Below, piece by piece: positions 425 to 56,415 of a stretch of DNA of 64,000 bases. The position numbers and the translations under genes are program-made. The notes beneath the pieces were generated by a model that searched no databases, was not told the origin of the DNA, and saw only the letters and a program-made list of their open reading frames with translations. Within the stretch, counting starts at the first letter, position 1, and every line of letters starts with the position of its first letter. Location: the NCBI RefSeq assembly GCF_002224125.1, contig NZ_NCSM01000042.1, positions 127,223-191,222 on the forward strand, read 5' to 3'. The stretch is from Streptomyces sp. NBS 14/10 (GTDB lineage: Bacteria; Actinomycetota; Actinomycetes; Streptomycetales; Streptomycetaceae).

Positions 425-457
425 GTTGACGGTCTATGAGTTGACGGTCTGTGAGTT
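413..457. repeat. Three tandem copies of a 15-bp unit carrying the stop codon
   Basis: The unit GACGGTCTGTGAGTT occurs at 413-427, 428-442 (one change, CTG to CTA) and 443-457. Because 15 is a multiple of three, each copy reads Asp-Gly-Leu-stop in the frame of the upstream protease, giving three consecutive in-frame stop codons. The array ends exactly where the stop codon of the convergent LysR gene begins. Confidence 0.9.
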
Positions 458-1350
458 CAGGACACCCCGAGCCGTGGCTCGCGGGTGAGGGCGGCGGCCA
501 GTCGGTGCAGGGCGGGGTTCGGGCTGTCCGGGCTCCAACAGGCGTGCAGGGTCACGGAGTGGGCGTCGGCCGGGGCGAGCTCCCGGTACCGGACGCCGTG
601 CACCCCCATCGTCATGATCGAGCGCGGTATCAGCGCACAGCCGAGCCCCGCCCGCACCAGCGCCAGCATGGTCGGCACCTGTGAGGTCAGCTGGCTGACC
701 GCGTAGCGGTCCACGCCGATCATGGCCGCGCAGATGTCGTGCAGATACCGGGAGCCCTCGGGGGTGTAGCCGATGTAGTCGTCGGCGACGTCCGCGAGGG
801 CGACCGGGTCCTCGGCGCGGGCCAGCGCATGGTCGGCGGGGACGGCGAGCACCAGGTCCTCGGAGTGCACCAGGACCGACTGGTACTGGTCGGGGATCGG
901 CGGCCGGACGAGGCCCAAGTCGATCTCCAGATCGGCCAGCGCCGCGAACTGGTCCGGGCTGACGAGTTCCGTCAGTTCCACGGAGACATCGGGGAGGTGG
1001 CGGTTCACCAGGTCGAGGACGTCGGCGAGTATCGCGTACGCCCCAATCGCGGTGAAGGCCAGCCGCAGTGTCCCCGCACGGCCCTCGGCGGCGTGGCGGG
1101 CGGCGACCGGCGCGGCGTCCAGCAGGGCCAGGACTCGACGGCAGTGGTCGAGAAGGGCCTGGCCCGCCGCGGTGAGACGGGTGCCCCGGCCGGTGCGCTC
1201 GAAGAGCACGACGCCCAGGCTTCGCTCCAGCGCCTGGATCTGGCGGGTCAGCGGCGGCTGGGTCATGTTGAGCCGTGCCGCGGCACGGCCGAAGTGCTGT
1301 TCCTCTGCGACGGCGACGAAACCACGGAGCTGTTGCAGAGAGAAGTCCAT
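457..1350 (-). CDS. LysR-family transcriptional regulator
   Basis: About 297 residues, the usual LysR length. An N-terminal winged helix-turn-helix (about residues 1-62: FVAVAEEQHFGRAAARLNMTQ, then PPLTRQIQALE) is followed by a periplasmic-binding-like effector domain (about 90-295). The start is placed at ATG 1350 because family members begin MDFxLxQLRxF; a GTG at 1359 in frame is possible and neither has a clear ribosome site. It lies 74 bp downstream of the FAD monooxygenase gene on the same strand, so it is probably the pathway-specific regulator of the NRPS locus and may be co-transcribed with it. The effector is unknown; the assignment to the cluster is inference from position. Confidence 0.85.
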   Translation of the reverse strand: MDFSLQQLRGFVAVAEEQHFGRAAARLNMTQPPLTRQIQALERSLGVVLFERTGRGTRLTAAGQALLDHCRRVLALLDAAPVAARHAAEGRAGTLRLAFTAIGAYAILADVLDLVNRHLPDVSVELTELVSPDQFAALADLEIDLGLVRPPIPDQYQSVLVHSEDLVLAVPADHALARAEDPVALADVADDYIGYTPEGSRYLHDICAAMIGVDRYAVSQLTSQVPTMLALVRAGLGCALIPRSIMTMGVHGVRYRELAPADAHSVTLHACWSPDSPNPALHRLAAALTREPRLGVS

Positions 1351-1424
1351 GCCGGTCACGGTATCGCCGAGGGCCGCGGGGCCACAGCGGTGTGCGCTGT
1401 GGCCCCGTCACGGCAGCCGCGGTG

Positions 1425-2594
1425 TCAGGCGTGGATCCCGGGGAACGTGAGGACGTCCCGCTGCTGCTCCGCGAAGGCCGCGTAGGTCGTCGCGCGCAGT
1501 TGTTCGTCCCGTTCGTGCCGCTGCCCCGGGTCCTCCAGTTGCTCCTGTTCGCTCAGCGCGCGGGAGCCGAGGACCATGGCCCGGTTGCGCTCGCGGCGCT
1601 GGTCCTCGTAGCTGCGCAGTCCTGCGGTCAGATCGCCGGAGCGGGCCAGTGTTCCGGCCAGGACGACGGCGTCCTCGATGGCCATCCCGGCTCCCTGGGC
1701 GAGGCTGGTGAGCATGGGGTGCGCGGCGTCTCCGAGGAGGGTGACACGGCCGTCGCCCCACTGTTCCAGGAAGTCGCGGTCACGGGCCGGGATGGCGATG
1801 ATGTCCTTTTCGGGGGTTACGCGGATGGCCGCCTGGACCTCGTCCGCCCAGCCTTCGTACGCCTGGACGATCTCCTCCTTCGTGCCCTGCCAGTCGGCGG
1901 CCCGTTCGACGGACATGTTCTTGGTGCCGAACCAGTAGGTCTGTCCGTGTCCCACGTCCAGCAGGCCGAATCGCTGTCCGCTTCCCCAGTAGTGGAGGAC
2001 CGATCCGGTCTCGAAGTTCGGGTGGCTGAACGGGACGATGGCGAGCCAGCACACATACCCGGCCTCCCGCACCGGTTCCGGGCCGGTGATCTGGCGGCGG
2101 ATGGCGGAGTTGATCCCGTCGGCCCCGATGACGATGTCGCCATGGGCCTCGCTGCCGTCGGCGAAGCGCACGGTCGCTCCGTCCGGCCGGGTCTCGTAGC
2201 CGACGGCGGCGGCGCCGAGGGTGATGGGGGTGTCTCCCACCGCTTCCAGCAGGCCCTGCTGCAAGGCGCTGCGGCTGATGACCACGGTGGGTGGCAGACC
2301 CAGTTCGTCGCTCAGCTCCGGGATGGGGAACCAGGTGATGTGGTTGCCCTCGGCGTCGTTGATGCCGAAGCGCTGGAGCACCTGCCCGCGCTTTTCGAGG
2401 CCGATGTCGAGGCCGAGGGCTCCCAGCGCGGCGCCGCCGTTGCTCAGCACGCCGAGGCCGGAGCCGGCGGCTTTCAGCTCGGTGGCGCGCTCGTACACCT
2501 CGACGTCGAAGTCGACCTGGCGCAGCGCGGCGGCCAGCGTGAGACCGCCGATCCCTGCCCCGATGACCACTGCTTTGGGCCGGTGGGATGTCAT
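1425..2594 (-). CDS. FAD-dependent (class A) monooxygenase of the NRPS cluster
   Basis: A 389-residue single-component flavoprotein hydroxylase of the PHBH/UbiH fold. Visible motifs are the N-terminal dinucleotide-binding GAGIGG in VVIGAGIGGLTLAAAL, the central DG motif (IGADGINSAIRR) and the GD motif with the FAD ribityl contact (LLGDAAHPMLTSLAQGAGMA). Such enzymes insert one oxygen into an aromatic or activated substrate using NAD(P)H. The start codon overlaps the NRPS stop in an ATGA at 2591-2594, so translation is coupled to the NRPS and the enzyme very likely acts on the peptide product or a precursor. The true substrate cannot be read from sequence. Confidence 0.88.
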   Translation of the reverse strand: MTSHRPKAVVIGAGIGGLTLAAALRQVDFDVEVYERATELKAAGSGLGVLSNGGAALGALGLDIGLEKRGQVLQRFGINDAEGNHITWFPIPELSDELGLPPTVVISRSALQQGLLEAVGDTPITLGAAAVGYETRPDGATVRFADGSEAHGDIVIGADGINSAIRRQITGPEPVREAGYVCWLAIVPFSHPNFETGSVLHYWGSGQRFGLLDVGHGQTYWFGTKNMSVERAADWQGTKEEIVQAYEGWADEVQAAIRVTPEKDIIAIPARDRDFLEQWGDGRVTLLGDAAHPMLTSLAQGAGMAIEDAVVLAGTLARSGDLTAGLRSYEDQRRERNRAMVLGSRALSEQEQLEDPGQRHERDEQLRATTYAAFAEQQRDVLTFPGIHA

Positions 2595-5500
2595 AGAACT
2601 CGGTTTTCCCTTCGGAGATGGGTTGAGGGGTGCAGGATGTCGGCCATGGTCTTGGCCACATGGGCGACGCCGGGCTCCTCCATGATGGAGAGGTGGTCGC
2701 CGGGTATGCCGATGACCTGGATACGGCCGGTGGTCACCCGCTGCCAGCCGTTGGTGGGTTCGTAGTGCAGGCTGCCCGCGGCGCCGTGCATGGCTTCGAG
2801 GATCGCGGGGAGCGGTTCGTCGGCCCGTAGCAGGATGACGTCCTGGTCGTTGGTGCCCGGCCGGTAGTTCAGCGTGGCCAGCCAGTTCGCCCGGTAGAGG
2901 CGGAACAGGCGCTGGACGACGGTCCCCGAGCTGTCGGCGGGCAGCACGCCCAGGTCGACGGCGCACCGTGCGATATGTGCGAACTTCTCGTCCAGCGAGG
3001 TGGCGTGCTCGGGTATCGCCTCCAGCGGCGAGGCTCCGCCGCGTACGGGCCAGAGCAGTTCCCAGAAGAACCAGCCGAGCAGCGCGTCGTCGGTGTACAG
3101 CTCGCGGAGTCTGGGGTTCAGGGTGACCGTGTCCAGGATCAGCACGTCCGCCTGCTCGCCCTGCGCGCGGAGTTGCAGGGCCATTTCGAAGGCGACGAAC
3201 CCGCCGAAGGAGTAGCCGCTGATCTTGTACGGGCCTTCGGGCTGGATCCGTTTGACCGCGGCGAGGTAGTTGCGGGCCATGTCCGGAATGGTGTCCAGCG
3301 GTTCGGTGCCGGGGTCGGCGCCGGCCGCCTGGAGGGCGTACAGGGGCTGGTCGGGGTCGAGGTGTTTGGCGAAGGGCAGGAAGCACAGCACATTGCCGCC
3401 CATGGGGTGGACCATGAAGAGCGGGGTCCGGCCACCCGACGGGTTGAGCGGCACGATCGGGTCGAAGCAGGCCGGTGTCGCCGCGCCGGATCCCAGCCGG
3501 TCGGCCATGGCGGCCACGGTGGGCGCGGCGATGAACTCCGACAGCGGAATGACGGTGCCGAAGCGCTGTTCCAGGGTGGCGATCAGCCGCATCGCGGTCA
3601 GTGAGGTGCCGCCGAGGTCGAACATGGAGTCGTGGATGCCGACTTCGGGCAGATGCAGCAGGTCCGCGAGGATTTCGGCGAGGGCCTTCTCCAGCGGGGT
3701 GCGCGGCGGGGTGGTGTCGTGGTCGGCCGGCGCTTCGAGGGGGATGGCCCGCAGGGCGGCGTCGTCGCGTTTGCCGCTGGGGGTGGACGGCATGGCGGGG
3801 AGCCACTGGACGTAGGACGGGACCATGTAGTCGGGGAGCGTTTCGCGCAACCGGCTGCGGAGCGCGCCGGTGTCCACCGTCGACGGGTCACCAGTGAGAA
3901 ACGCCACCAGGACCGTGTCCGTACCGGGGCGGTTGTGGGCGACGACGGCGGCCTCCGCGATACCGGGGTGGCGGGGGGCGAGGTCGCGGATCGCCAACTC
4001 CACCTCGGCCGTCTCGACGCGGAATCCGCGGACCTTGACCTGGGTGTCGGCGCGGCCGGTGCATACGATCTCGCCGCCCGGCAGGGCGAAGCCGAGGTCG
4101 CCGGAGCGGTAGAAGCGGCCGGACCTGCCGGGCAGCGTGACGAAGCGTTCCTTGGTCAGGTCGTCGCGGCCCAGATAGCCCCGTGCGACGGTGGCGCCGC
4201 CGAGATACAGCTCGCCCGTCACCCCGGGCGGTACGGGGCGCAGCCGCGGGTCCACCACGACCACGTGGGCGCCGTCGACGGCGGTCCCCACCGGGGGGAG
4301 GTCCGGGAAGTCGGCCGGCGGTCCGGTCAGGGTGTGGCGGGTGACCACATGGGTCTCGGTGGGGCCGTACTGGTTCTCCAGCACCATCCCGGGCAGGGCC
4401 GAGCACAGTCGGCGGACCTCGTCGGTGATCCTCAGCTGTTCGCCGCTGGAGACGATGACGCGCAGCGCGGCCGGGGTGAGGCCCAGCGCCTCGGCGGCCA
4501 GCGCCAGTTGCTGGAGGGCGATGGAGGGAACGAAGACGCGCTCGACCCGTTCCCGGTGCAACAGGCGTACCAGGGCCGGCATGTCCCTGCGGATCTCCTC
4601 CGGCACCAGCCGGAGGGTGCCGCCCGCGCACAGGGTGGAGAAGATCTCCTGGAGGGAGACATCGAAGCTCAGCGGCGCGTACTGCAGGGTGATGCCCTGC
4701 GCGGCGCTGGGGGCGCGGTTCTGCCAGGAGACGAGGGTGGCCAGGGTGCGGTGGGGGATGTCGACCCCCTTGGGCCGCCCGGTGGAGCCCGAGGTGAACA
4801 GGACACACGCGGTGCCGTCCAGGGCGATCGCGGGGAGGGGCGGGGCGGAGGTGTCCTCGGTGGGCGGTTCGGCGATCTCCTCGAACCGTACGATCCGCGA
4901 GGCGCGGCCGAGGGGGGCGTCGTGCCGGCCGGTGGTGACGATATGGCGGGGATCCGCCGCTTCGATCATGTAGGAGAGCCGGGTGGCGGGGTATCCGGTG
5001 TCCAGGGGCATGACCGCCGCTCCGGCCCGCATGATGCCCAGGATGGCCGCGATCACCTCGGGCGACCGGTCGGCCGCGACACCGACGACATCGCCGGTGC
5101 GCACCCCCAGGGCGAGCAGGTTGCGGGCCACGGCCTCGGTCGTCCGGTCGAGCCGCGCGTAGGTCCACTGCTCGTCCTCGGTTGCCAGGGCGAGGGCGTC
5201 CGGGGTGCGTAAGGCCTGGTCCGCGAACCCGTCCAGCACACTCGGTGGCGCCTTGTCGGCGGCGGTGAGCGGCTGTGGCACGGCGGTGAGGAAGTCCCAG
5301 CCGGGCTGCTCCTGGGGGTGGTGGACCATCCGGTCCAGGACCCGGGTGTAGTAGTCGGCGAACACACCGACCTGGTCCCGGGTGACCGTCTGGCCGTCGT
5401 TGTCGATACGCAGCCAGATGCTCTGGTCGACGGGGTCCGTCACGGCGTTGACCAGCAGCGAGAAGTTGGTCTCCTCGACGGTGCGCAGCTCCGTCAGCTC

Positions 5501-8500
5501 CAGCCCCGGCTCCCGGAGCGCGTCCGTGAGCTGCTGGAACCGTACGTAGTTGAACACCGTCTCGAACAGCGGGCCGCCGCCGTGCGCCTCCTGGATGGCG
5601 CTGATCGGGTAGTGGCGGTAGGGATACGCGCTCTGCTCGCGCCCGAACGCCTCCCGCACCGCGTCCAGCCAGCTGTCCTGGGCCGTGTTCACCCTCATGG
5701 GAAGGGTGTTGAGGAACAGCCCGACCATGCGCTCGGCATGCGGGTGTTCCGGGCGGCCGTGTGCGATGAGACCGGTCATGATGTCGTCGCGCCCGGACAG
5801 CAGCCGCAGGGTCATGCAGTGGGCGGCGAATAGCACCGACTTCACCGGCAGCGCCTGAGCGCGGGCGAAGGCCCGTACGTCGTCGCCGAGCCGGGCCGGC
5901 AGGTCGAAGCGGTGCGATCCGCGTACGCCCGCGGCCGACGGCGGCTGGTGCGGGCGGTACGAGCCGAGAGCGGTGGGTTCGCCTCCGGCGAGCTCCTCGC
6001 GCCAGTACCGGCGGTCTTCCTCCGACGCCAGGGCCCGTCGTTCGGCCAGCAGGTGTGCGGCGGGCGAGGGCAGGCGGACCTCGGGCGCCGGGGTCGGATG
6101 CAGGCCCAGGGCATGCCCGTAGTCACGCAGCAGTTCGCCCATGAGATTGGCGACGCTCGCCCCGTCGAACAGGGCGTGGTGGAAGCTCAGGACCAAGTCG
6201 ACCGCGCTGCGGCGGACATGGACGCGCAGCGCGTACAGCGGGGCGGTGGCAGTGGCGGCGTCAATGGAGTACTCGTGGTGGCGGCGTTCTTCGATATGCC
6301 GCGCCACCTCCGCTTCCGCGTCGTCGATGTCACGGGACCGCAGATCGACGATGTCGAGGCTGTCGTTTATGGCCGGGTGCACCAGCTGCAGCGGTTCGGT
6401 GAACCCGGCCAGGCCGAAGCTGGTGCGCAGCGCCGGGTGGCGCCGTACGAGCCCGCCGAAGGCCGCGCGGAAGTGTCCCTCGTCCCAGTCGCAACGCAGC
6501 GTGTAGCGGAACACGTCCTTGTACAGGGACGATCCCCGGCGCTGACGGCTGTGGTAGATCAGGCCGAGTTGCATCCGGGTGAGCGGATAGGCGTCCGAGA
6601 CCGAGCCGAGCCGCGCCCGGTCGATACCGGAGACGGTGTCGAAGGGGCTCGGTTCCGCCAAGGGATCGGAGGGGGATGCGTCGAGGACGGCCCGCGCGGC
6701 CAGGCGGGCGACGGTGGAGTGCCGTACGAGATCGGCCAGCGGGAAGCGCAGACCGCGCTGCTCGGCCAGGGCGCGGACCCGCAGCATCTGCAGCGAGTCG
6801 CCGCCGAGCGCGTAGTAGTCGTCCTCGGCGCCCACCGGACCGCACCGCAGGACCTCGGACCATACGTCCGCCAGGATCTGTTCCGCGGAGGTGAGCGGGC
6901 GTGTGGCCGGTGCGCCGCCGCGGGCCACCGGTTCCGGCAGCGCCCGGCGGTCGGCCTTGCCGTTGGGGGTCAGCGGAATGTGGTCGAGCCGCATCAGCAG
7001 CGCCGGGATCATGAACTCCGGTAAATCTTCCGCCAGTTGGCGGCGCACGTCGACGGCGTCGAGCTCGTCGTCGGAGACGTAGTAGCCGACCAGGTGGACA
7101 CCCCGTTCGTCATCGGTGCGGTCCACGACCAGCGCGTCGCGGATGCCGGGCACGGCGGTCAGGGCCCGGCCGACCTCGCCCGGCTCCACCCGGTTCCCGC
7201 GGATCTTCACCTGGTCGTCGAGGCGGCCGAGGTATTCGAGGGAGCCGTCGGCGAGCCACCGTACGAGGTCACCGGTGCGGTACAGACTGCCTTCGCCGGT
7301 GAACGGGTCGCCGATGAACCGCTCCGCCGTAAGGTCGGGCCGGTTCAGATATCCCGCGGCCACCCCGGCGCCGCCGATCCACAGCTCGCCCGGGACACCT
7401 GTGGGCTGCGGCTGCCCGTCCTCCCCGACCACGTACAGACAGGTGTTGTCGATCGGCCGTCCGATGGGCACGCGGCCGACGGGGCGGCCGGGGTCCCCGG
7501 GGCAGTCGTGGAAGGTCACATCGACGGTCGCCTCGGTCGGGCCGTACAGGTTCACCAGGTCCGGCGTGGCACGCTCCCCGTCGTGGAAGAGCCGGTTGAA
7601 CCGGTCGACGCGGGCGGCCGGCAGCGCCTCTCCGCTGCAGAAGACACGGCGCAGCGTCTCCGTGTCGGCGCGCAGGTCCGGGGTCTGCTCCGCGGCGTCG
7701 AGGAAGGCGCCGAGCATGGACGGTACGAAGTGCGCGACGGTGACGCGCCGGTCGCGGATGGTCCGGCCGAGCACCCGAGGGTCCTTCTCACCGCCGGGCG
7801 GCAGCAGGGCCACGCTCGCTCCCTCAACCGCCCACCAGAACAGCTCCCATACGGACACATCGAAGGACACGGGGGTCTTCTGGAGCAGTACGTCGCCCTC
7901 GCCGATCGGGTACGCGCGCTGCATCCAGGCCAGCCGGTTGACCACCGAGTGGTGCCGGACCTGGACGCCCTTGGGCTTGCCGGTGGAGCCGGAGGTGTAG
8001 ATCACATACGCGAGGTCCGAGCCGTCGGCCGCCCGCTCGAGCGGGGAGTCGTCGCCGTGCAGCAGATCCGCGACACGGTGCACGGGTACGCCCTCCGCCA
8101 CCGCGCTCTCCGGCATGCGCTCGTCCGACGCCAGCACGGCGGCCGGACGGCTGTCGTCGAGCAGGAAGCGGATGCGCTCGCGTGGATATCCCGGGTCCAC
8201 CGGGACATAGGCGCCGCCCGCCTTGCCCACCCCCATCAGCGCGATGAGCAGGTCGGGGCCGCGCTCCAGCGAGACGGCGACCCGGTCGCCCGGGCCCACG
8301 CCGTCCGCTCGCAGCGCCCGGGCGACCTGGTTGGCCCGTGCGTCGAGTTCGGCGTACGTCAGGGCGTCGTCCAGGCCGGGGCCCACCACGGCGATCCGCT
8401 CCGGAGCGCGGGCGACCTGGCGCTCGAAGAGCCCGGAGAGGGTGACGTCCCGCGGATACGCGACGCGGTCTCCCTGGCCGCGCCGGATCAGCTCTTCCCG

Positions 8501-9805
8501 CTCCGAGGCCGGGAGCATCGGCGCCGCGGACACCGGCCCGTCGGCCAGGTCCACGCCCCCTTCCAGCAGATACTTCAGGTGCCCGGCCATCGCCTCGATG
8601 GGGTAGTCGTCGTCGAAGACGTCCGTGGCGTAGTCCAGGTCGAAGCGGATCTCCTGCGCGTTGTCGAAGTCCAGCACCACCACCGAGAGGGCATCCTGCT
8701 CGTGGCAGGGCGATTCCATCCACGTCTCGAGGTCGATGCCCGGGCCGGGGCCCGGGCGTCCGGCCCGGAGATAGGACAACGTCACATCGAACAACTGCCG
8801 GTTACCGCCGTGGAGTCCCGGTAACGCGCGTACGACGTCCCCGAGGGCCACCCGCTCGTGTCGGCGCAGTGCACGGGTGGCGCTCCGCGTCCGGTTGACG
8901 ATGTCGCGCAGCGGCTTTCCGCCGTGGGCGGGCAGGAGCAGGGGCAGCGTGTTCGCGAAATGCCCGACGGTGTCCATGAACTCACCCGGCCGGTTCAGGA
9001 CCGGAACGCCCAGGATCACCTCCTCGGTGCGATGCACCCGCGTCAGGTAGGCGCCCAGCATCGTGGCGATATAGGGAAACAGTGGCAGTTGGGCCTTGCG
9101 GACGCGTTCCGCCCATGAACGGTCCAGTGTGAAGGAGTGGCGCGCGCCTGCGCGGGGGGCGCCCGCCGGCTTCCTGGGGAACAGCGCGGGGACCGCGCCG
9201 ACGAGGGCGGAGCGGTGGGCCTCCAGGTCCGCGGTGTTCTCCTCGGATCCCTGGTAGGCGGCATCCCGCGCGGAGAACGAGCGGTACGGCGGCGCGCCGC
9301 TTTCCGCGGCGGCTCCGCCCGCCACCAGCGACGCGTAATCGTCGAGAATCCGGCCGCTCGTCAGGGCGAGCGACCAGCCGTCCATCACCAGGTGGTGCGC
9401 GACCAGTTGGAGGTGTGTCACGCGGGGGCCCTCCACCAGGATCGCCACCCGGACCATCGGCTGATCGCGCAGCGGCATCGGGCGCTGCTGGAATGCGCGC
9501 ACCCAGCGGCGGCAGGCCGCCGCCGGATCGCTTTCCCGTGACAGGTCGGTCGTTTCTACAGCGGGCGGCTGGGGTTCGACCCACTGACGGGGTGTCCCGT
9601 CCTGGTCGTCGAATCGCAGACGCAGAGCGTCATGACGCCGCAGGGCTTGCTCGGCACACTGGCGGAGGACGCCGAGATTCACATCCCCGGTGAGCTTTTC
9701 GTGAAATGAGACACTGTACTGCGGTGATTCCTCGGACTGTGCGGCGGAGACCCAGATGTCGAGCTGATATCGCGTCAAGGGGAAGGGTTTAGCGGGCGAA
9801 TTCAT
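2591..9805 (-). CDS. Dimodular non-ribosomal peptide synthetase C-A(Ser)-T-C-A-T-TE
   Basis: 2404 residues. Order: condensation C1 (about 8-445, HHLVMDG near 140), adenylation A1 (about 470-960), carrier T1 (GGDSL, Ser1004), C2 (about 1055-1490, HHALFDG near 1208), A2 (about 1520-2010), carrier T2 (GGTSL, Ser2068), thioesterase (about 2120-2400, GYSFGG with Ser2199, GDH near 2370). Reading the specificity pockets by alignment to GrsA positions gives DVWHFSLVDK for A1, the classical EntF-type serine code. A2 reads DVQFVSQVVK, which starts like proline/pipecolate codes but matches none I know exactly. Both A10 lysines are present. No epimerase or methyltransferase is seen, and no MbtH gene is nearby. 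The N-terminal C domain implies an acyl or aryl cap on serine. ATG 9805 was chosen because GGAG sits 9 nt upstream. Confidence 0.93.
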   Translation of the reverse strand: MNSPAKPFPLTRYQLDIWVSAAQSEESPQYSVSFHEKLTGDVNLGVLRQCAEQALRRHDALRLRFDDQDGTPRQWVEPQPPAVETTDLSRESDPAAACRRWVRAFQQRPMPLRDQPMVRVAILVEGPRVTHLQLVAHHLVMDGWSLALTSGRILDDYASLVAGGAAAESGAPPYRSFSARDAAYQGSEENTADLEAHRSALVGAVPALFPRKPAGAPRAGARHSFTLDRSWAERVRKAQLPLFPYIATMLGAYLTRVHRTEEVILGVPVLNRPGEFMDTVGHFANTLPLLLPAHGGKPLRDIVNRTRSATRALRRHERVALGDVVRALPGLHGGNRQLFDVTLSYLRAGRPGPGPGIDLETWMESPCHEQDALSVVVLDFDNAQEIRFDLDYATDVFDDDYPIEAMAGHLKYLLEGGVDLADGPVSAAPMLPASEREELIRRGQGDRVAYPRDVTLSGLFERQVARAPERIAVVGPGLDDALTYAELDARANQVARALRADGVGPGDRVAVSLERGPDLLIALMGVGKAGGAYVPVDPGYPRERIRFLLDDSRPAAVLASDERMPESAVAEGVPVHRVADLLHGDDSPLERAADGSDLAYVIYTSGSTGKPKGVQVRHHSVVNRLAWMQRAYPIGEGDVLLQKTPVSFDVSVWELFWWAVEGASVALLPPGGEKDPRVLGRTIRDRRVTVAHFVPSMLGAFLDAAEQTPDLRADTETLRRVFCSGEALPAARVDRFNRLFHDGERATPDLVNLYGPTEATVDVTFHDCPGDPGRPVGRVPIGRPIDNTCLYVVGEDGQPQPTGVPGELWIGGAGVAAGYLNRPDLTAERFIGDPFTGEGSLYRTGDLVRWLADGSLEYLGRLDDQVKIRGNRVEPGEVGRALTAVPGIRDALVVDRTDDERGVHLVGYYVSDDELDAVDVRRQLAEDLPEFMIPALLMRLDHIPLTPNGKADRRALPEPVARGGAPATRPLTSAEQILADVWSEVLRCGPVGAEDDYYALGGDSLQMLRVRALAEQRGLRFPLADLVRHSTVARLAARAVLDASPSDPLAEPSPFDTVSGIDRARLGSVSDAYPLTRMQLGLIYHSRQRRGSSLYKDVFRYTLRCDWDEGHFRAAFGGLVRRHPALRTSFGLAGFTEPLQLVHPAINDSLDIVDLRSRDIDDAEAEVARHIEERRHHEYSIDAATATAPLYALRVHVRRSAVDLVLSFHHALFDGASVANLMGELLRDYGHALGLHPTPAPEVRLPSPAAHLLAERRALASEEDRRYWREELAGGEPTALGSYRPHQPPSAAGVRGSHRFDLPARLGDDVRAFARAQALPVKSVLFAAHCMTLRLLSGRDDIMTGLIAHGRPEHPHAERMVGLFLNTLPMRVNTAQDSWLDAVREAFGREQSAYPYRHYPISAIQEAHGGGPLFETVFNYVRFQQLTDALREPGLELTELRTVEETNFSLLVNAVTDPVDQSIWLRIDNDGQTVTRDQVGVFADYYTRVLDRMVHHPQEQPGWDFLTAVPQPLTAADKAPPSVLDGFADQALRTPDALALATEDEQWTYARLDRTTEAVARNLLALGVRTGDVVGVAADRSPEVIAAILGIMRAGAAVMPLDTGYPATRLSYMIEAADPRHIVTTGRHDAPLGRASRIVRFEEIAEPPTEDTSAPPLPAIALDGTACVLFTSGSTGRPKGVDIPHRTLATLVSWQNRAPSAAQGITLQYAPLSFDVSLQEIFSTLCAGGTLRLVPEEIRRDMPALVRLLHRERVERVFVPSIALQQLALAAEALGLTPAALRVIVSSGEQLRITDEVRRLCSALPGMVLENQYGPTETHVVTRHTLTGPPADFPDLPPVGTAVDGAHVVVVDPRLRPVPPGVTGELYLGGATVARGYLGRDDLTKERFVTLPGRSGRFYRSGDLGFALPGGEIVCTGRADTQVKVRGFRVETAEVELAIRDLAPRHPGIAEAAVVAHNRPGTDTVLVAFLTGDPSTVDTGALRSRLRETLPDYMVPSYVQWLPAMPSTPSGKRDDAALRAIPLEAPADHDTTPPRTPLEKALAEILADLLHLPEVGIHDSMFDLGGTSLTAMRLIATLEQRFGTVIPLSEFIAAPTVAAMADRLGSGAATPACFDPIVPLNPSGGRTPLFMVHPMGGNVLCFLPFAKHLDPDQPLYALQAAGADPGTEPLDTIPDMARNYLAAVKRIQPEGPYKISGYSFGGFVAFEMALQLRAQGEQADVLILDTVTLNPRLRELYTDDALLGWFFWELLWPVRGGASPLEAIPEHATSLDEKFAHIARCAVDLGVLPADSSGTVVQRLFRLYRANWLATLNYRPGTNDQDVILLRADEPLPAILEAMHGAAGSLHYEPTNGWQRVTTGRIQVIGIPGDHLSIMEEPGVAHVAKTMADILHPSTHLRRENRVL

Positions 9806-9909
9806 TGTCACGATCTCCGGGTGAGACGTTGGGGGCCGGCTACCGGTCGAACGAAGGAATGAGAAGGACTGCGGACAAAAGAACGCGAAGGACCCGTGGC
9901 GAGGGCGGA

Positions 9910-10893
9910 CTAGTACCAGCGCACCAGTGCCGCGGCGGCGTTCATACCGCCGCCGATGGAGGCCAGCAGGAGGATTTCCCCTCGCTCCAGGGGCCGGTCC
10001 CGGTCTGCCGCACACAGAGTGACGGGAATGGAGGCGCCCGCGGTGTTCCCCAGGTGGGGAGCGGTGAGCGGCATACGCTTACGGTCGATTCCCGTCATAT
10101 CGGCGAAGGACTCCAACAGGCGGGGGTTCGCCTGATGGAAGATGAACCGGTCAATTCCTCCCAGACTCAACCCGGCGTCGTCCAGGACCTGGTCCACGAT
10201 CTTGGGCAGAGTCGTGTGCACATACTGCCGGATCGCACGCCCGTCCATCTTCAGGAAATTCTGCCCGGATTGGAGCGCGGTCCGATCGAGCGGCAGGGCC
10301 GTGCCGCCGGCCGGCACTCCGACGAGATGGTGGAGGGCGCCATCGCTGATGGTCCGCATGGCCAGCAGTCCGTAGCCCTCCGGTACGGGGCCGAGCAGCA
10401 CGGCTCCGGCACCGTCCCCGAAGAGGCTCACGGTGCTCCGGTCGGTGCGGTCCATGATGGTGGAGAACATATCGGCGCCCACCACCAGCACATGTTCGGT
10501 ATCCGGCGACGCCGACCGCAGACCGTCGGCGACGGCCATGCCGTACAGGAAGCCACTGCACACCGCGTTGACATCGAAGGCCGGCATGACGCGCAGCCCG
10601 AGTTTGTGCTGCACGATGGCTGCCGTCGCCGGCTGGGGCACATCGGGCGTACAGGTGGTCAGTATCAGAGCGTCGATCAGCTCCGCGGCGCCGTCGCATT
10701 CGGAGAAGATCTGCCGCACCGCGCGCACCGCGAGATCCGAGGTGGCCGTTCCGGTGCTCGCATACCGTCTCTCGAGAATTCCCGTGCGTTCGTGGATCCA
10801 TTCCTCCGATACGCCGGCCCATTCGGCTATCTGATCGTTTCCGACCACGCGATCGGGTACATGAGATCCGATGCTGATGATCCCTGTGGGCAT
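9910..10893 (-). CDS. Beta-ketoacyl-ACP synthase III-like (FabH-like) condensing enzyme
   Basis: 327 residues from ATG 10893 (MPTGIISIG), the normal FabH length. The thiolase-fold catalytic triad is intact: Cys112 in NAVCSGF, His253 in FHQANPRLL and Asn283 in LGNTAGAS. These enzymes perform decarboxylative condensation of an acyl-CoA with malonyl-ACP, or act as acyltransferases in secondary metabolism. It is the first gene of the leftward unit, 104 bp ahead of the NRPS, so it probably makes or transfers the acyl group used by the NRPS starter condensation domain (inference). The frame stays open to a GTG at 11010; the extra 39 codons have mixed codon bias, so a longer N-terminus cannot be excluded. 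Confidence 0.85.
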   Translation of the reverse strand: MPTGIISIGSHVPDRVVGNDQIAEWAGVSEEWIHERTGILERRYASTGTATSDLAVRAVRQIFSECDGAAELIDALILTTCTPDVPQPATAAIVQHKLGLRVMPAFDVNAVCSGFLYGMAVADGLRSASPDTEHVLVVGADMFSTIMDRTDRSTVSLFGDGAGAVLLGPVPEGYGLLAMRTISDGALHHLVGVPAGGTALPLDRTALQSGQNFLKMDGRAIRQYVHTTLPKIVDQVLDDAGLSLGGIDRFIFHQANPRLLESFADMTGIDRKRMPLTAPHLGNTAGASIPVTLCAADRDRPLERGEILLLASIGGGMNAAAALVRWY

Positions 10894-11010
10894 GGGGAAA
10901 TCCAGTTCGTCGATGGCCAGGCGGCGCGCATGGCGGCCCTGGCCCAGGGAAGGAAAACAGGAATCGCGCTGTTCCTTGAATTTCTTCTCGTCGACAGTCG
11001 GCGGACTCAC

Positions 11011-11368
11011 ATGGAAAGGGATGCCTCGACGGAGGGAAGCTTAGCCTGCGCCAGAGAAATCAGTCACTGTGACGTGCACCACTTTATTCCTCCGATGAAC
11101 GGTGGCCCATAGTCCGTTTTCAGTCCCCGTCACTTCAAACTGACATAGTTCTGCCATACATGGATTTCCGGGTCAACGTAAAACGGCGTCAGTTACGGCT
11201 GAAAATGCGCGAGGGCACGGCACCCTACCCCGGCAGCCCCCGTCGGACGGGCTCTTGAGGTACGGCCGAAGGTCCCCGGGGCCCACCCGCGATGTCACAT
11301 CCAGGGCCTCCCGGTCCGTCCAGAAGTCGGTGATGCATCAGATGCCGCACTTCGAAAGGGACAGAAAA
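11011..11368. other. Divergent intergenic region between the FabH-like and MMPL genes
   Basis: About 360 bp with lower GC than its surroundings, from which the leftward biosynthetic unit and the rightward exporter diverge. It must hold both promoters, but I see no clear -35/-10 pairs. Interrupted TTTTCAG and CTGAAAA tracts (near 11118 and 11199) face each other and could be part of a regulator site; this is weak. The exporter start is preceded by GAAAGGGA. Confidence 0.5.
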
Positions 11369-13609
11369 ATGCTTGACAGGCTGGCCAGACTGGTCATCCG
11401 GCGCCGAGTGGCGGTTCTTGTGGTGAGTCTCGTACTCGCCGTGGCCGGAGGAATCGCGAGTACGACCCTCTTCAGCAAATTGGCCGCGGGCGGGTTCGAC
11501 GACCCGCACTCGGAGTCCGGACGCGCCGTCAAGATGCTCTCCGACACGTTCGGCCAAGGCCAGCCCAACCTCACCGTGCTCGTCACCGTCGACGGCAGGG
11601 TGGACGATCCCGCCGCCCGGACCGCCGCCGGCGAGCTCACCCGGGAGCTGAGCAAGGAGCCCGGAGTCGAGAACGTCACCTCTTACTGGACGGCGGGCAA
11701 ACCGCCCCGGATGAAGAGCAGAAACGGCGATGCGGCCCTGATCACCGGCACGGTGACCGGCGACGACTCCACGGCGCAGAAGCGCGTGGCCGAGCTGGCC
11801 GATGCCTACGAGGGCGAACGAGCCGGTCTCGACGTGACGTTCGGCGGCAATACGAAGTTCCAGGCCGAGTTTCTGGAGCAGGGCCAGAAGGACGCCCAGA
11901 CCGGCGAGATCATCGCCATCCCCCTCACTCTGGTCGTGCTGGTCTTCGTCTTCGGAAGTCTGATGGCCGCCGCCCTTCCGCTGATCGTCGCCATCGTCGC
12001 GATGATGCTCTCCATGGGGCTGATGTGGCTCCTGGCGGAGATGACGGCCGTCGGATCCCTCTCCGCAAGCGTCGTGACCCTGCTGGGTCTGGGGCTCGCG
12101 ATCGACTACAGCCTGCTCTTCGTCAACCGCTACCGGGAGGAACTGGCCTCCGGGAAGCAGACCGAGGAGGCGCTGCGGGCGACGATGACCTCGGCCGGGC
12201 GGACGGTGCTCTTCTCGACGCTCACGGTGGCGGTGGCCTCCAGCTCCATGGTGTGGTTTCCGCTTCTGGCCGTACGGTCCATGGGCTACGCGGGCGCGCT
12301 GACCGCGGTGCTGTCCGGTGCGGCCGCGCTGCTCGTGCTCCCCTCGGTGCTCGCCATGCTGGGTGACCGGATCGAGCGCGGCCGGGTCATCGGCCGCAAG
12401 AAGCGCGCCGCCGGGGCCGCGGAGGGCGACGGTGCCGCCGCGAACGGGTTCTGGCACCGCCTGGCGACGCTGGTGATGCGGCGTCCCCTGCCGATCGCCA
12501 CGGCGGTCACGCTCTTTCTGCTGCTGCTCGGCGCACCGTTCCTCGGCATCAACATCGGCATGCCGGACGAGCGCGTGATGCCGGAGTCGTCGTCCGCGCG
12601 CCGGGTCGCCACCGCCGTCAAGGAGGACTTCGTCGGCAGCGGGCAGAACGCGCTGGTGGTGATCGCGCCCGAGGGCGGATCGGACGAGAAGGCCGTCGAG
12701 GGGTACGCGAAGCGGTTGTCATCGCTGCCCGGTGTCGCCGCGGTGCGCACCTCCACCGGAAGCTACGCGGAAGGCGACCTCGCCACCCCCACTGACCAGC
12801 AGTCACGCGGCTTCGCCGCCAAGGGCGCCGTCTACTTCTCGGTGATGCCGGCGTCGGACAGCCCGGACGAGGCCGGGCAGATCGTCGGCGAGATCAGGGA
12901 CAGCGAGGCGCCGTTCGATGTCCTGGTGGGCGGTATGGCGGCCACCAACGAGGACGCGGCGTCCGCTCTGGTGGAGTGGCTGCCGTACGCGCTGGGCACA
13001 CTGCTGCTCGCGATGCTGGTGCTGCTGTTCCTGGTCACCGGGAGCGTTCTGCTGCCCTTCCTGGCCGTGGTGCTCAGCCTGCTCAGCCTGACGGCGACGT
13101 TCGGAGCGCTGGTGTGGGTGTTCCAGGACGGCCATCTGGCGGGGCTGTTCGGCGGTTTCACCGTGACCGGCAATATCGCGGCGACGATCCCGGTGATCCT
13201 CTTCGGCCTCGCCTTCGGTCTGGCCATGGACTACCAGGTGTTTCTGCTGTCCCGTATGCGGGAGGAGTACGAGCTGACGGGTTCCCCGACGAAGGCCGTG
13301 ACCCATGCTCTGGAGCACACAGGTCGGATCGTGACCGCCGCCGCGGTGGCCATTTCGATCGTCTTCCTCGCGTTCACGGCGTCGGACATCTCCCTGGTGA
13401 AGGCGTACGGTGTCGGGCTTCCGCTCGCAGTCCTGATGGACGCGACGCTCATCCGCGGTGTGCTGCTCCCCGCCGCGATGCGGCTGGGCGGCGGGGCCAC
13501 CTGGTGGGCGCCGCCGCGGCTTCGGCGGCTGCACGCCCGCCTCGGCCTGCGGGAGGAGGCACACCCGTCACGGCCGCGGAAGGAGCGGGAGCAGACGCCG
13601 GCCGGCTGA
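11369..13609 (+). CDS. MMPL/RND-family membrane transporter
   Basis: 746 residues in two repeats, each with one transmembrane helix, a periplasmic loop and five further helices. The first loop opens with the GGFDDPHSES segment characteristic of actinobacterial MMPL proteins. Helix-rich blocks lie at about 10-30, 185-340, 380-400 and 550-710, with conserved GLGLAIDYSLLFVNRYREE and GLAFGLAMDYQVFLLSRMRE (the Asp-Tyr pairs of the proton relay). Proteins of this family export lipids and lipopeptides using the proton gradient. It is divergent from the FabH/NRPS unit, so it probably exports the NRPS product. ATG 11369 was chosen for the family-typical N-terminus and the upstream AAAGGG; the frame is open to 11255. 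Confidence 0.9.
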   Translation: MLDRLARLVIRRRVAVLVVSLVLAVAGGIASTTLFSKLAAGGFDDPHSESGRAVKMLSDTFGQGQPNLTVLVTVDGRVDDPAARTAAGELTRELSKEPGVENVTSYWTAGKPPRMKSRNGDAALITGTVTGDDSTAQKRVAELADAYEGERAGLDVTFGGNTKFQAEFLEQGQKDAQTGEIIAIPLTLVVLVFVFGSLMAAALPLIVAIVAMMLSMGLMWLLAEMTAVGSLSASVVTLLGLGLAIDYSLLFVNRYREELASGKQTEEALRATMTSAGRTVLFSTLTVAVASSSMVWFPLLAVRSMGYAGALTAVLSGAAALLVLPSVLAMLGDRIERGRVIGRKKRAAGAAEGDGAAANGFWHRLATLVMRRPLPIATAVTLFLLLLGAPFLGINIGMPDERVMPESSSARRVATAVKEDFVGSGQNALVVIAPEGGSDEKAVEGYAKRLSSLPGVAAVRTSTGSYAEGDLATPTDQQSRGFAAKGAVYFSVMPASDSPDEAGQIVGEIRDSEAPFDVLVGGMAATNEDAASALVEWLPYALGTLLLAMLVLLFLVTGSVLLPFLAVVLSLLSLTATFGALVWVFQDGHLAGLFGGFTVTGNIAATIPVILFGLAFGLAMDYQVFLLSRMREEYELTGSPTKAVTHALEHTGRIVTAAAVAISIVFLAFTASDISLVKAYGVGLPLAVLMDATLIRGVLLPAAMRLGGGATWWAPPRLRRLHARLGLREEAHPSRPRKEREQTPAG

Positions 13610-13647: not shown

Positions 13648-14367
13648 TCAGGACAGGAAACTGCCGTACGGGCCGTTCAGGATCCCGTTCTTCTGGGACT
13701 GGTTGAAGTGACAGTTCGGGTAGTCGTAGAACGACGCGGACATCGGTGTGCCGTCGGTGAACGTGGAGTCGGGCAGACCCAAGGCATGGCCCAGCTCGTG
13801 CACCATGCCGCCGTACCACCGGTTCATATTGCCGTTGGTACCGGCGGCACCGTCGGCGTCGTGACCGCTGAGGATCACCCAGCCGCCGCCACCGCCGCCA
13901 CCGGAGACGTTCTGCTGCTCGGCGCTGATCTCGCCGACGCACAGCCAGCGCGAGTCCGGGGCGTTGAGAGCCAGCTTGCGCATCAGCTCCTGCTGCATGT
14001 TGAAGACCACCCACCAGTACGGGTCGTCGCCGTTCCGCGTGTTCTCGTACCAGGCCCGGTTGTGGTCGCCGTTGACCACCTCGACCGCCGGGTTGTTCAG
14101 CGTGAAGGTCTTGCCGAGTTCCTGGCGGTAGTAGCGCTGTGCCTCCTTCATCACATTGGTGATGCCATCGGGGTAACGCTGGTCGAGTGCCACATCCGTG
14201 GGCTTGAGCCAGAACACTCGCACGGTCTTGGACGGCGGGGCGGCGGCCGAACGCGCCGTCGCCTCCGTCGCCGCCTCGGCGACCCCCGTCAACACCCCGG
14301 AGCCCAACGCTGCCATCCCCGCGGTCGCGGTCAGCACCGCGCGGCGCGTCATCTTGCGACTATCCAC
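13648..14367 (-). CDS. Tat-exported snapalysin-like zinc metalloprotease
   Basis: 239 residues. A twin-arginine signal (MTRRAVLTATAGMAALGSG) is followed by an Ala-rich region. The catalytic domain has the metzincin site VHELGHALGLPD (HExxHxxGxxD) and a Met-turn (TPMSASFYD), the pattern of MEROPS M7 snapalysins, small extracellular proteases of Streptomyces. The start is set at GTG 14367, which has a perfect AGGAGG six bases upstream, giving MDSRKMTRRAVLT; the ATG at 14352 and an upstream ATG lack a ribosome site. The protein is somewhat longer than classical snapalysin and holds a seven-glycine run before the active site. A strong dyad lies upstream (14422-14450). Confidence 0.85.
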   Translation of the reverse strand: MDSRKMTRRAVLTATAGMAALGSGVLTGVAEAATEATARSAAAPPSKTVRVFWLKPTDVALDQRYPDGITNVMKEAQRYYRQELGKTFTLNNPAVEVVNGDHNRAWYENTRNGDDPYWWVVFNMQQELMRKLALNAPDSRWLCVGEISAEQQNVSGGGGGGGWVILSGHDADGAAGTNGNMNRWYGGMVHELGHALGLPDSTFTDGTPMSASFYDYPNCHFNQSQKNGILNGPYGSFLS

Positions 14368-14373
14368 CGAACA

Positions 14374-14379
14374 CCTCCT
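14374..14379 (-). promoter_or_regulatory. Ribosome binding site fixing the metalloprotease start
   Basis: AGGAGG on the minus strand, six bases before GTG 14367. It is the only good Shine-Dalgarno near the candidate starts. Confidence 0.85.
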
Positions 14380-14421
14380 CGATGAACCAGTACATGACAA
14401 GACGAAGCTAGCACCAACTTA

Positions 14422-28173: not shown

Positions 28174-29436
28174 TCACACCAGATCGACAGCCATGGGATT
28201 GTCGAATTTCCGGCGCATATAAGAGAGATCCTTGAGAAGGTCTGCCGAAGTGAACCGCCCGCCACCACCCCGCCGCGGAGAGCCGCCGAGCGGCAGGGCG
28301 CCGGTGGACTCCCAGCGCAACCGGCCGTCGTCGTCGATGAAGCTGCGTGTGTCTCCTCTGTTGTCCGGGTGTAAGCAGTAGGGGATGTCCAAATACCCCC
28401 GCTTGAAGGCCAGCAGCAGCGCGCGGCCCACATCGGGGGCGAGGTTCAGCACCGCGCCGACCAGCGCCGCCGCCTCCTCGTACGTACGGGAGTCGGCGTC
28501 GTCGGCGGCGCGGGCGCGGGCCTGCGGGACGCGTCCGGCCGCCCAGGCCGCGTACTCCAGAGCGCGCACATTCTCGTCGATGGTGGGGATGCGCCGTGAT
28601 TCGGAAGCCGTCTTGACGATCAGCCGCTGTGCGCCGCCGACGACCGCGAGCTCCGCCGCCTGGCCGAGCAGCCGGTAGGCGCCGTCGAGTGTTTCGGGGT
28701 AGAGGCCCATGTAGGTGTAGACGACGACATGCCAGTCGACGGCCGGCAGCAGCTCGCCGCACAGCCGCCGCAGCGCCGCGATGGCCTCCCTGTCCTGCGT
28801 CGGGTCGGTCTGCTGGGCGTAGCTGACGGACACGCTGCGGATGCCGTGCTGGACGAAGAACAGGGCCTCGAGCACGCTGATGGCCACGAGTTGGCTGGGC
28901 GGGCAGAGCTGTCCGAGCATGCAGCCGCCGAACGTCTCCAGGTGGGGCTCCATCCCGGTGTCACGGAGCTGCGCGAAGAGTTCGCAGCTCACCTCCCAGT
29001 TGCGCACGGACTCGGACAGCGGTGTGCGGCCGTACGGCAGGCAGTAGGAGACGGGGCCGCCCTCGGTGGCGCCCAGGCGTACGGGGAGCAGTGCGCGGAA
29101 GATGTCCACCGGGTTCGCCGAGCCGTGCCGTACCTGTACGGGGAAGTCCTCGCCCTGGATGCCGGACAGCACCAGTGCGGTGGTGGCGGCGGGGTGGCTG
29201 ACCAGCGGGTAGCCGTTGAGGTCGATTCCCTCGCGCAGGGCGGTGGCGACGGCGTCCAGGCGTCCCACCCGGGTGTGCGCGTCGACGGTGATGGTGCCGA
29301 CGGTACGGGCGGCGGCCCCGCGGGTCGCGGCGAGCCCGGCGCGCATGGCGGCCGGATCGCTGAACCCCATGCGGGGTTGTACGACGAGTCGGCCATGCGC
29401 CGCACCGGCCCGGACGAATGCCCCGAAGTCCACCAC
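28174..29436 (-). CDS. glmE: Glutamate (methylaspartate) mutase, catalytic subunit E
   Basis: 420 residues, a TIM-barrel subunit of the coenzyme B12-dependent glutamate mutase, which interconverts L-glutamate and (2S,3S)-3-methylaspartate. Recognisable blocks are the substrate-binding GSANPVDIFRALLP, EGGPVSYCLPYGR and ETFGGCMLGQLCPP, and IVKTASESRRIPTI. It follows the small subunit gene by 14 bp. No methylaspartase or mesaconase is near, so it is not a complete fermentation pathway; in Streptomyces such pairs often supply 3-methylaspartate to natural products. No such assembly line adjoins it here. Confidence 0.9.
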   Translation of the reverse strand: MVDFGAFVRAGAAHGRLVVQPRMGFSDPAAMRAGLAATRGAAARTVGTITVDAHTRVGRLDAVATALREGIDLNGYPLVSHPAATTALVLSGIQGEDFPVQVRHGSANPVDIFRALLPVRLGATEGGPVSYCLPYGRTPLSESVRNWEVSCELFAQLRDTGMEPHLETFGGCMLGQLCPPSQLVAISVLEALFFVQHGIRSVSVSYAQQTDPTQDREAIAALRRLCGELLPAVDWHVVVYTYMGLYPETLDGAYRLLGQAAELAVVGGAQRLIVKTASESRRIPTIDENVRALEYAAWAAGRVPQARARAADDADSRTYEEAAALVGAVLNLAPDVGRALLLAFKRGYLDIPYCLHPDNRGDTRSFIDDDGRLRWESTGALPLGGSPRRGGGGRFTSADLLKDLSYMRRKFDNPMAVDLV

Positions 29437-30663: not shown

Positions 30664-30863
30664 CAGTTTCCCCACCGCATCCTCGTCGTCGAGGACGACC
30701 CCGGCATCTGCCTGCTACTGGAGTCGGCCCTGGGCCTGTCCGGATACCAGGTGAGCAGCGCCGCCACGGGGCGCGACTCCCTGCTGGAGTCGAGCGCTTC
30801 CGCCCCGACGTCCTGTTTTGCTCGATGTGATGCTTCCCGACCTCGACGGCTTCGAGGTCACCC
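30664..30863 (+). pseudogene. OmpR-type response regulator, N-terminal half (interrupted)
   Basis: The receiver-domain start HRILVVEDDPGICLLLESAL is clear, followed by LSGYQVSSAATGRDSLLE, then in other frames VERFRPDVL and LDVMLPDLDGFEVT, which includes the phosphoacceptor Asp. At least two indels (near 30790 and 30815) shift the frame, and the start is also out of frame with the likely N-terminus. At 30863 the coding sequence stops at the border of the IS element and resumes at 33006. The gene is therefore dead in two ways. Confidence 0.85.
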
Positions 30864-55239: not shown

Positions 55240-56415
55240 ATGGCAACTCAGTCACTTCCCCCACCCCCCGCGCGGCGTGCCGTGATCGTCGGCTCCGGCA
55301 TATCCGGACTCGCCGCGGCCCTGACCCTGCACCGGGCCGGCTGGCGGCCCCTGATCGTCGAACGCGCGCCCCGGCGGCGTACCGGCGGCTACTTCGTCCG
55401 TTTCTTCGGCCCCGGCTACGCCGCCGCCGAACGCCTGGGCATCCTGGACGCGCTCCCCCAGCGCACCGTCCCCGACGGGCGTATGTACGAGATCGCCCGC
55501 AGCGGCCGCGTCACCCCGGGCATCACCTATCCGAGCCATGCCGACGGCACCCCGCTGCGGATCCTGCTCCGCAGCGATCTGGAACGGGTCCTGTACGACG
55601 AGGTCCACGACCTGGTCGAGATCCGCTACGGAGTCGGGCCCGCGGCCATCACCCAGGACCGCCACCAGGTGACCGTCACCCTGACCGACGGTTCGGTGGA
55701 GACCGCGGACCTGCTCATCGGCGCCGACGGCATCCACTCCACCGTCCGCTCCCTGGTCTTCGGCCCGGAAGACCTCTACCGCAAGGACTTCGACCACGCC
55801 GTGGCCGCCTGCGTCATCGACGGCGAGCTGCCCGGCGTACGCGACGGCGACACCCTGGTCGCCACCGCCCCCGGCCGCTCGGCCTGGATCAACACCTACG
55901 TCGACCATCCCCCGGTGGCCTTCATGCTCTACCGCACGCCCTGGCCCTCCGCGGAGGTCCGCAGGAATCCCTCCGAGGCGCTGCGCGAGGCGTTCGGTGA
56001 CTTCGACGGCGCCATCGTGCCGGCCGTGCTGGACGCGCTGGACCGCTCCGAGTCCGTGCTCTTCGACCAGGTCAGCCAGATCCACATCAACCGCTGGAGC
56101 CGGGGCCGGGTGGTCCTGCTCGGCGATTCCGCCTGGTGCATGACCCTCTACTCAGGACAGGGTTCCGGGATGGGCATCGCAGGCGCCGAGCTGCTGGGCC
56201 GGCGGCTGCTGGGTGAGCACGCCGACATCCCCGCCGCCCTCGGCGCCTGGGAGCAGCAACTGCGCCCGCTGACCACCCGCTACCAGAAGCAGGCGCTGTT
56301 CATGCAGCACATGTTCATGCCCGTCAACCGGTTCGGACACCTCGCCCGCCGTACCGCCATCCGCGCGATCTCCAGCCCGGTCGGCGTCAAGATCGCCAAG
56401 GCTGTCAAGCGCTGA
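55240..56415 (+). CDS. FAD-dependent monooxygenase (aromatic-ring/antibiotic type)
   Basis: 391 residues. FAD-binding GSGISGL in VIVGSGISGLAAALTLHRAG, DG motif IGADGIHSTVRSL and GD motif VVLLGDSAWCMTLYSGQGSG. With a TetR regulator and a DHA2 pump it forms a typical xenobiotic-handling unit, so drug inactivation is plausible; the substrate is not known. A GTG at 55215 with GGGAG upstream begins a different, Pro-rich frame that overlaps the first codons across a poly-C stretch, so either the start is misread by one base there or ATG 55240 is used with a weak AAAGG. Confidence 0.85.
   Translation: MATQSLPPPPARRAVIVGSGISGLAAALTLHRAGWRPLIVERAPRRRTGGYFVRFFGPGYAAAERLGILDALPQRTVPDGRMYEIARSGRVTPGITYPSHADGTPLRILLRSDLERVLYDEVHDLVEIRYGVGPAAITQDRHQVTVTLTDGSVETADLLIGADGIHSTVRSLVFGPEDLYRKDFDHAVAACVIDGELPGVRDGDTLVATAPGRSAWINTYVDHPPVAFMLYRTPWPSAEVRRNPSEALREAFGDFDGAIVPAVLDALDRSESVLFDQVSQIHINRWSRGRVVLLGDSAWCMTLYSGQGSGMGIAGAELLGRRLLGEHADIPAALGAWEQQLRPLTTRYQKQALFMQHMFMPVNRFGHLARRTAIRAISSPVGVKIAKAVKR

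Follow-up and report, generated by a model that had tools for sequence, protein, structure and literature searches.

What does the compact biosynthetic locus near one end of a 64,000-nucleotide stretch of DNA from Streptomyces sp. NBS 14/10 (contig NZ_NCSM01000042.1, positions 127,223 to 191,222; hereafter the window) produce, and does it have described counterparts? The host genome measures 12.1 Mb. The locus consists of a minus-strand run of genes for a stand-alone ketosynthase III (KSIII), a nonribosomal peptide synthetase (NRPS), a flavin adenine dinucleotide (FAD)-dependent monooxygenase and a LysR-type regulator, with an MMPL transporter gene on the plus strand divergent from the KSIII gene. 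The original prediction, made from the sequence of this DNA, recognised no described family with this composition. Our analysis indicates that the locus is very probably a divergent member of the bicyclic alkaloid cluster family built on a Ser-Pro NRPS and an LgnC-type Baeyer–Villiger oxygenase, acting by the route proposed below. These two enzymes are described as the family core (PMC7820566, PMC11177316, PMC11457151), and the same pair is the core of the bacterial pyrrolizidine, brabantamide and bicyclocarbamate pathways.

Specifically, the locus has a bimodular NRPS with the order condensation–adenylation–thiolation–condensation–adenylation–thiolation–thioesterase (C-A-T-C-A-T-TE), serine and proline adenylation codes (substrates being assigned by code only) and an LgnC-type oxygenase directly behind the NRPS. 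Relatives of the oxygenase were collected by surveying the genus, where 36 of 392 genomes, the host included, reached E <= 1e-70 and 36 such matches lay in genomes other than the host's; the phylum, where 2 of 296 genomes held a match, again including the host; and a second draw from the family (394 genomes), where five genomes including the host held a match at E <= 1e-140, none closer than 61% identity. Gene order was compared across 48 loci, comprising the host's own, 36 from the genus survey, seven named records and four from the second draw. The oxygenase gene lies directly behind the NRPS gene, on the same strand and within 76 nt, in 46 of the 47 relatives (47 of 48 with the window), among them a locus from Xenorhabdus hominickii (L131); in the one exception, L096, the two genes are divergent. 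These relatives are not 47 independent events, as near-identical strains are included (L089, L090 and L130 share an identical oxygenase). The window itself has the translational coupling that had been predicted, with the NRPS stop codon overlapping the monooxygenase ATG by 4 bp and the monooxygenase reading frame intact.

In the tree of oxygenase sequences, the window protein groups with 44 relatives (SH-aLRT support of 100), opposite five outside sequences. LgnC-like enzymes are marked by the motifs GxGxxG, YWWxTKN and GDAAH (PMC7820566); the window oxygenase contains GAGIGG, YWFGTKN and GDAAH, the middle motif differing by one residue. In LgnC, the H200A and W221A mutants are inactive and Y219F loses 95% of its activity (PMC11457151). 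The equivalents of H200, R207 and Y219 are kept in the window oxygenase as H201, R208 and Y220, and that of W221 is F222 (codon 1929–1931). Among the outside sequences, Phe occupies this position in three of five (L134, L137 and L156), and the catalytic His is absent from all five. As a separate observation, the LgnC-type oxygenase of L095 (10571–13111) forms a fusion protein with a PapA/condensation-like acyltransferase domain (PF16911, PF00668), and long oxygenase frames of 685–858 aa occur in L067, L072, L083, L084 and L085.

With respect to the NRPS, both Pfam and motif analysis reproduce the predicted domain order, including the starter-position C domain at the N terminus, with thiolation domains marked by GGDSL at residue 1001 and GGTSL at residue 2065. 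The first condensation domain (C1) is 25–50% identical to the C1 domains of the 47 relatives. To obtain the adenylation codes, the core motifs of the window NRPS were used with positions that we take to be those of the standard scheme; alignment then transferred these positions to the relatives. The code of the first adenylation domain (A1), DVWHFSLVD, was found as predicted and is, we assume, that of EntF for serine; it is exact in 41 of 43 relatives, the others being L083, one residue off, and L079, whose DFWNVGMVH is presumably threonine-type. The code of the second (A2) begins with DVQ in the window and in 40 of 43 relatives (the exceptions are L084, L085 and L102), and the full window code, DVQFVSQVV, recurs in six of the 43, including L079. 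The latter has a legonmycin-like split NRPS (C-T-C-A-T-TE, oxygenase and a separate A-T). The A2 code of L131 is DVQYISQVI. For legonmycin, the second adenylation domain is predicted to be proline-specific (PMC8748450), and pyrrolizixenamide from Xenorhabdus is made from serine and proline (PMC11794875). Because the A2 code is common to L079, which has the layout of legonmycin, and a DVQ-type code is found in the Xenorhabdus locus, the second residue of the Ser-X product that had been predicted is, judging from these codes, most likely proline.

Taken together with the chemistry of characterised relatives, these features suggest the following pathway. The KSIII would condense an acyl-CoA with malonyl-acyl carrier protein (ACP) and thereby start a fatty tail, probably assisted by the housekeeping ACP and fatty acid synthase reductases, as the cluster was not seen to have its own. 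C1 would then acylate the serine that A1, to judge from its code, loads onto the first thiolation domain. By analogy with LgnD-C2 (PMC8748450), C2 would dehydrate the acyl-serine and join it to the proline that A2 is predicted by its code to load, and release by the TE would proceed through cyclisation to a [5+6] indolizidinone, as in related systems. The flavoenzyme, whose class is read from its sequence, would place an oxygen atom next to the ketone, yielding a [5+7] oxazepine-dione carbamate. In characterised relatives, the route runs from indolizidinone to [5+7] carbamate and on to hydrolysis with ring contraction, or to rearrangement (PMC11177316); by analogy, the carbamate of this locus may persist, contract to a pyrrolizidine or rearrange to a brabantamide-type product. 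The earlier proposal of a small acyl-Ser-X pathway is thus retained, and its dipeptide or lactone end point gives way to an indolizidinone converted into a bicyclic carbamate or pyrrolizidine, in keeping with the proline-type A2 and the LgnC-clade oxygenase.

Among known systems, the pyrrolizixenamide pathway of Xenorhabdus (PxaA/PxaB) likewise combines a Ser-Pro C-A-T-C-A-T-TE NRPS with a Baeyer–Villiger oxygenase (PMC11177316, PMC11794875). The X. hominickii locus L131, which is not itself shown to be the pxa cluster, is 50% identical to the window in the oxygenase, 45% in A1 and 51% in the TE; unlike the window, it has Trp at the F222 position and no KSIII was found at the locus. Legonmycin (LgnA–D, Streptomyces sp. 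MA37) shares the LgnC-type oxygenase with its H200, R207 and Y219 equivalents, and the legonmycin-like L079 has the same A2 code, whereas the legonmycin system has its NRPS split, draws on Thr and isovaleryl-CoA (PMC8748450) and has W221 where the window has Phe. The brabantamide pathway of Pseudomonas (BraB/BraC) agrees with the window, by description, in the architecture of its NRPS and the family of its oxygenase (PMC11177316), but its tails are 3-hydroxylated and rhamnosylated, and Pfam identified no glycosyltransferase among the window cluster genes. Clipibicyclene and metaze, which are bicyclocarbamate ClpP inhibitors, also belong to an NRPS-made bicyclocarbamate family (PMC13386464; clipibicyclene via citing papers), but contain an azetidine in the ring system, and the metaze gene cluster carries clpP, which the window lacks.

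In terms of gene content, a further parallel is offered by the azetidomonamide/azabicyclene (aze) locus of P. aeruginosa, which includes the NRPS gene azeB, the FAD-dependent monooxygenase gene azeC, the KSIII gene azeH (fabH2) and an ACP (PMC9040856), with an MFS transporter at PA3336 (PMC3325935). The likeness to the window, namely an NRPS, a FAD monooxygenase and a stand-alone KSIII, lies at the level of gene lists, and a described counterpart for this combination therefore exists. Unlike the aze locus as described, the window cluster was not seen to contain an ACP, short-chain dehydrogenase, P450, clpP2 or MFS transporter, and no azetidine-2-carboxylate synthase appeared among the neighbours run through Pfam (no profile search for it was made). 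Given that the Ser-Pro NRPS and LgnC-type oxygenase form a described pair, adjacent in nearly all relatives, and that aze provides a precedent for the KSIII, the view that the locus belongs to no described family does not hold.

The KSIII carries the Cys-His-Asn triad exactly as predicted (C112, H253 and N283 by alignment; Cys codon 10558–10560). It scores above the cut-off of the general beta-ketoacyl-ACP synthase 3 model NF006829 (306 versus 249 bits) but below that of the fabH model TIGR00747 (264.2 versus 292.1 bits). The best TIGR00747 match in the host genome lies on another contig (C95), is 31% identical to the window KSIII and is followed by ACP-like and ketosynthase-like genes, as read from the sequence rather than from Pfam; this is likely the host's own fabH. 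A housekeeping FabH role, which the original prediction had named as a point to be checked, was accordingly rejected for the window KSIII. Its nearest relatives (L038–L042) are 61% identical. Around L038, in the larger locus L103, the KSIII gene sits with a ketosynthase gene, two short-chain dehydrogenase/reductase genes and a further gene that is weakly KSIII-like, an arrangement that looks like a type II chain-building set. More distant relatives have an aminotransferase and an acyl-CoA dehydrogenase (L111) or an enoyl-CoA hydratase (L113) beside them; since neighbours differ among the relatives, they indicate no single function.

Sequences for the KSIII alignment and tree were the best matches to the window protein, the host's own paralogues and the KSIIIs of related clusters, and all 37 aligned with the window protein are Cys-His-Asn. 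The window KSIII has a Gln in a PQP motif; a Gln in PQP or IQP is present in all of L038–L066 (29 sequences) and in L120, and is absent from four of the host's paralogues and from the KSIIIs of L084, L085 and L095. At this position E. coli FabH presumably has Phe87. In the tree, a quick one built without bootstrapping, the L084 and L095 proteins group with a host paralogue (L002; support 94), apart from the window KSIII, and that of L085 forms a long branch of unsure place. As cluster KSIIIs fall in different clades, the enzyme appears to have entered clusters of this kind on two or more occasions. GC content at third codon positions (GC3) is 0.805 for the KSIII gene versus 0.89–0.90 for the LysR, oxygenase, NRPS and MMPL genes, and suggests a separate origin. 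An ACP gene adjoins the KSIII gene of L095. Separately, the host KSIII with which those of L084 and L095 group (L218; G000 C62:577001–587000) lies beside genes for an ACP-like protein of 76 aa and a ketosynthase-like protein, again as read from the sequence.

A number of observations weigh against the proposed assignment and pathway. None of the relatives found exceeds 62% identity to the window oxygenase, and the tree gives it no close partner with good support. At the position of F222, all 48 relatives have Trp (44 in the alignment and four further), and the window enzyme could be impaired or altered, given the inactivity of LgnC W221A (PMC11457151). All five clpP matches in the genome are on other contigs, with none in the window, and the in-cluster clpP and dedicated ACP of the azetidomonamide/clipibicyclene subtype were not found in the window cluster. 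A KSIII was found within the fetched stretch of three of the 47 relatives (L084, L085 and L095; a lower bound, as some loci stop at contig ends), at 35–38% identity to that of the window, and KSIII-like genes are common in the host genome, with 14 matches to TIGR00747, three of which pass. Moreover, no ACP-like open reading frame of at least 50 aa was seen at 9700–11400, and the genes next to the KSIII in the cluster revealed neither an ACP nor a reductase or dehydratase.

Some of these points bear on rival explanations. One possibility, on balance unlikely, is that the KSIII takes no part in the pathway, its gene having arrived recently upstream of the NRPS gene and its product supplying general lipid metabolism, and that C1 draws acyl-CoA from the cell pool as the legonmycin NRPS does with isovaleryl-CoA, which is enough for legonindolizidine formation in vitro (PMC8748450). 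Its absence from the stretches of 44 of 47 relatives and the separate origin suggested by GC3 fit such a history, but the gene precedes the NRPS gene on the same strand at a distance of 104 bp, and KSIIIs of another clade are found in the L084 and L095 clusters, as is azeH in aze. We also consider it unlikely that the core is as proposed and the KSIII is a ChlB3/CerJ-type acyltransferase, transferring a preformed acyl group from CoA or another carrier to a carrier protein or to the product, with no chain building. Stand-alone KSIII-like acyltransferases do occur in Streptomyces pathways, as with ChlB3, and the lack of a visible ACP or reductase in the cluster is compatible with such a role; ChlB3 and CerJ are, however, Cys-His-Asp enzymes (PMC9573744), unlike the window KSIII and its 37 aligned homologues, and the window protein passes NF006829.

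It is more doubtful that the flavoenzyme performs no Baeyer–Villiger step, leaving the indolizidinone itself or a hydroxylated form of it as the product. This explanation draws on the uniqueness of F222, on the inactive LgnC mutant and on the Phe found in three of the five outside sequences, but the retention of H201, R208 and Y220, the first of which has no counterpart in any outside sequence, and the intact reading frame and NRPS coupling argue against it. The acylated Ser-X dipeptide or macrolactone of the original prediction is permitted by domain order alone; the proline-type A2 and the LgnC-clade oxygenase, placed as in the great majority of relatives, make it very improbable. The assignment to the Ser-Pro NRPS/LgnC-type family thus remains our preferred reading of the locus.

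The features of the locus and of the NRPS are collected in Table 1.

Table 1. Genes of the locus and domains of its NRPS (window positions; domain limits marked approximate where so determined)
Feature	Position	Strand	Evidence and remarks
LysR-type regulator	457–1359	-	PF00126/PF03466 (Pfam); directly downstream of operon, possible cluster regulator
LgnC/PxaB/BraC-type FAD-dependent Baeyer–Villiger monooxygenase, 389 aa	1425–2594	-	PF01494 (Pfam), alignments, tree
Bimodular NRPS, C-A(Ser)-T-C-A(Pro)-T-TE, 2404 aa	2591–9805	-	Pfam, motifs, specificity codes
TE, expected cyclase	2639–3424	-	GYSFGG at residue 2197; Pfam, motifs
A2, proline-type, DVQFVSQVV	3746–5188, approximate	-	Specificity code
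C2	5306–6598	-	Pfam residues 1070–1500; HHALFDG at residue 1209; expected, by analogy with LgnD-C2, to dehydrate acyl-Ser and condense Pro
A1, serine, DVWHFSLVD	6926–8428, approximate	-	Specificity code
C1, N-terminal (starter-position) condensation domain	8486–9805, approximate	-	HHLVMDG at residue 137; Pfam, motifs
KSIII, 327 aa	9910–10893	-	PF08545/PF08541 (Pfam)
MMPL-family transporter, 746 aa, possible exporter	11369–13609	+	PF03176 (Pfam)

Pfam and the open reading frame coordinates confirm the genes that had been predicted for the locus, the MMPL gene among them. Membership of the MMPL gene in the cluster is unsupported, contrary to the exporter role first proposed: the 43 LgnC-type loci of 15–21 kb gave no MMPL match, and neither did three loci from the outside group or a single locus of 4 kb (a count that leaves out L226–L229). 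The transporter may nevertheless export the product. LysR matches of 67–72 bits are present in 6 of these 47 loci, and in L076 and L081 the LysR gene adjoins the NRPS gene on the same strand, so that a link between this regulator and the cluster exists in a minority of loci. A promoter and terminator scan of 9600–11500 gave nothing above chance. The outer genes checked include a GH85 glycosidase and solute-transport genes to the right and a GH127 protein to the left. The immediate right neighbour (13648–14400, minus strand) encodes a protein of some 240 aa whose start is signal-like and which carries a zinc-protease-like HELGHALGL motif; it matches nothing in Pfam or NCBIfam. Elsewhere in the window are a methylaspartate mutase E-chain-like protein (28174–29436, minus strand; PF06368), a reading frame whose product carries a Cas12f1-like TNB domain and may be a transposon protein of the TnpB type (30858–32222, minus strand; PF07282), and a second FAD_binding_3 monooxygenase distant from the NRPS (55240–56415, plus strand).

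The kind of cluster described here is therefore already known; what appears new, as far as we have seen and on the sequence evidence, is the combination of this KSIII clade with a Ser-Pro NRPS/Baeyer–Villiger core, together with the active-site Phe. We recognised no described Streptomyces case of a KSIII in this pathway in the literature covered, although the work on clipibicyclene (Culp 2022) and azabicyclene (Patteson 2019) was outside its scope and may hold one. With a C14 3-hydroxy tail, PxaB efficiently forms a brabantamide-type product in vitro, whereas plain-tailed substrates do not (PMC11177316). It is conceivable, if improbable, that a 3-oxo or 3-hydroxy tail set by the KSIII and the F222 site jointly direct the [5+7] carbamate towards a novel end product, such as one arising by an unglycosylated brabantamide-type rearrangement in an actinomycete; were this true, the window would represent a natural case of a tail-building gene setting ring chemistry. 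Products of the family include ClpP inhibitors and antibacterials, and the brabantamides led to a drug candidate (PMC11177316, PMC13386464). How the outcome is decided among pyrrolizidines, carbamates and brabantamides is understood only in part, and a natural Phe at a supposedly essential residue, in a cluster with its own likely tail-starting enzyme, would provide a direct test both of the active-site model and of the proposed control of the ring outcome by the tail.

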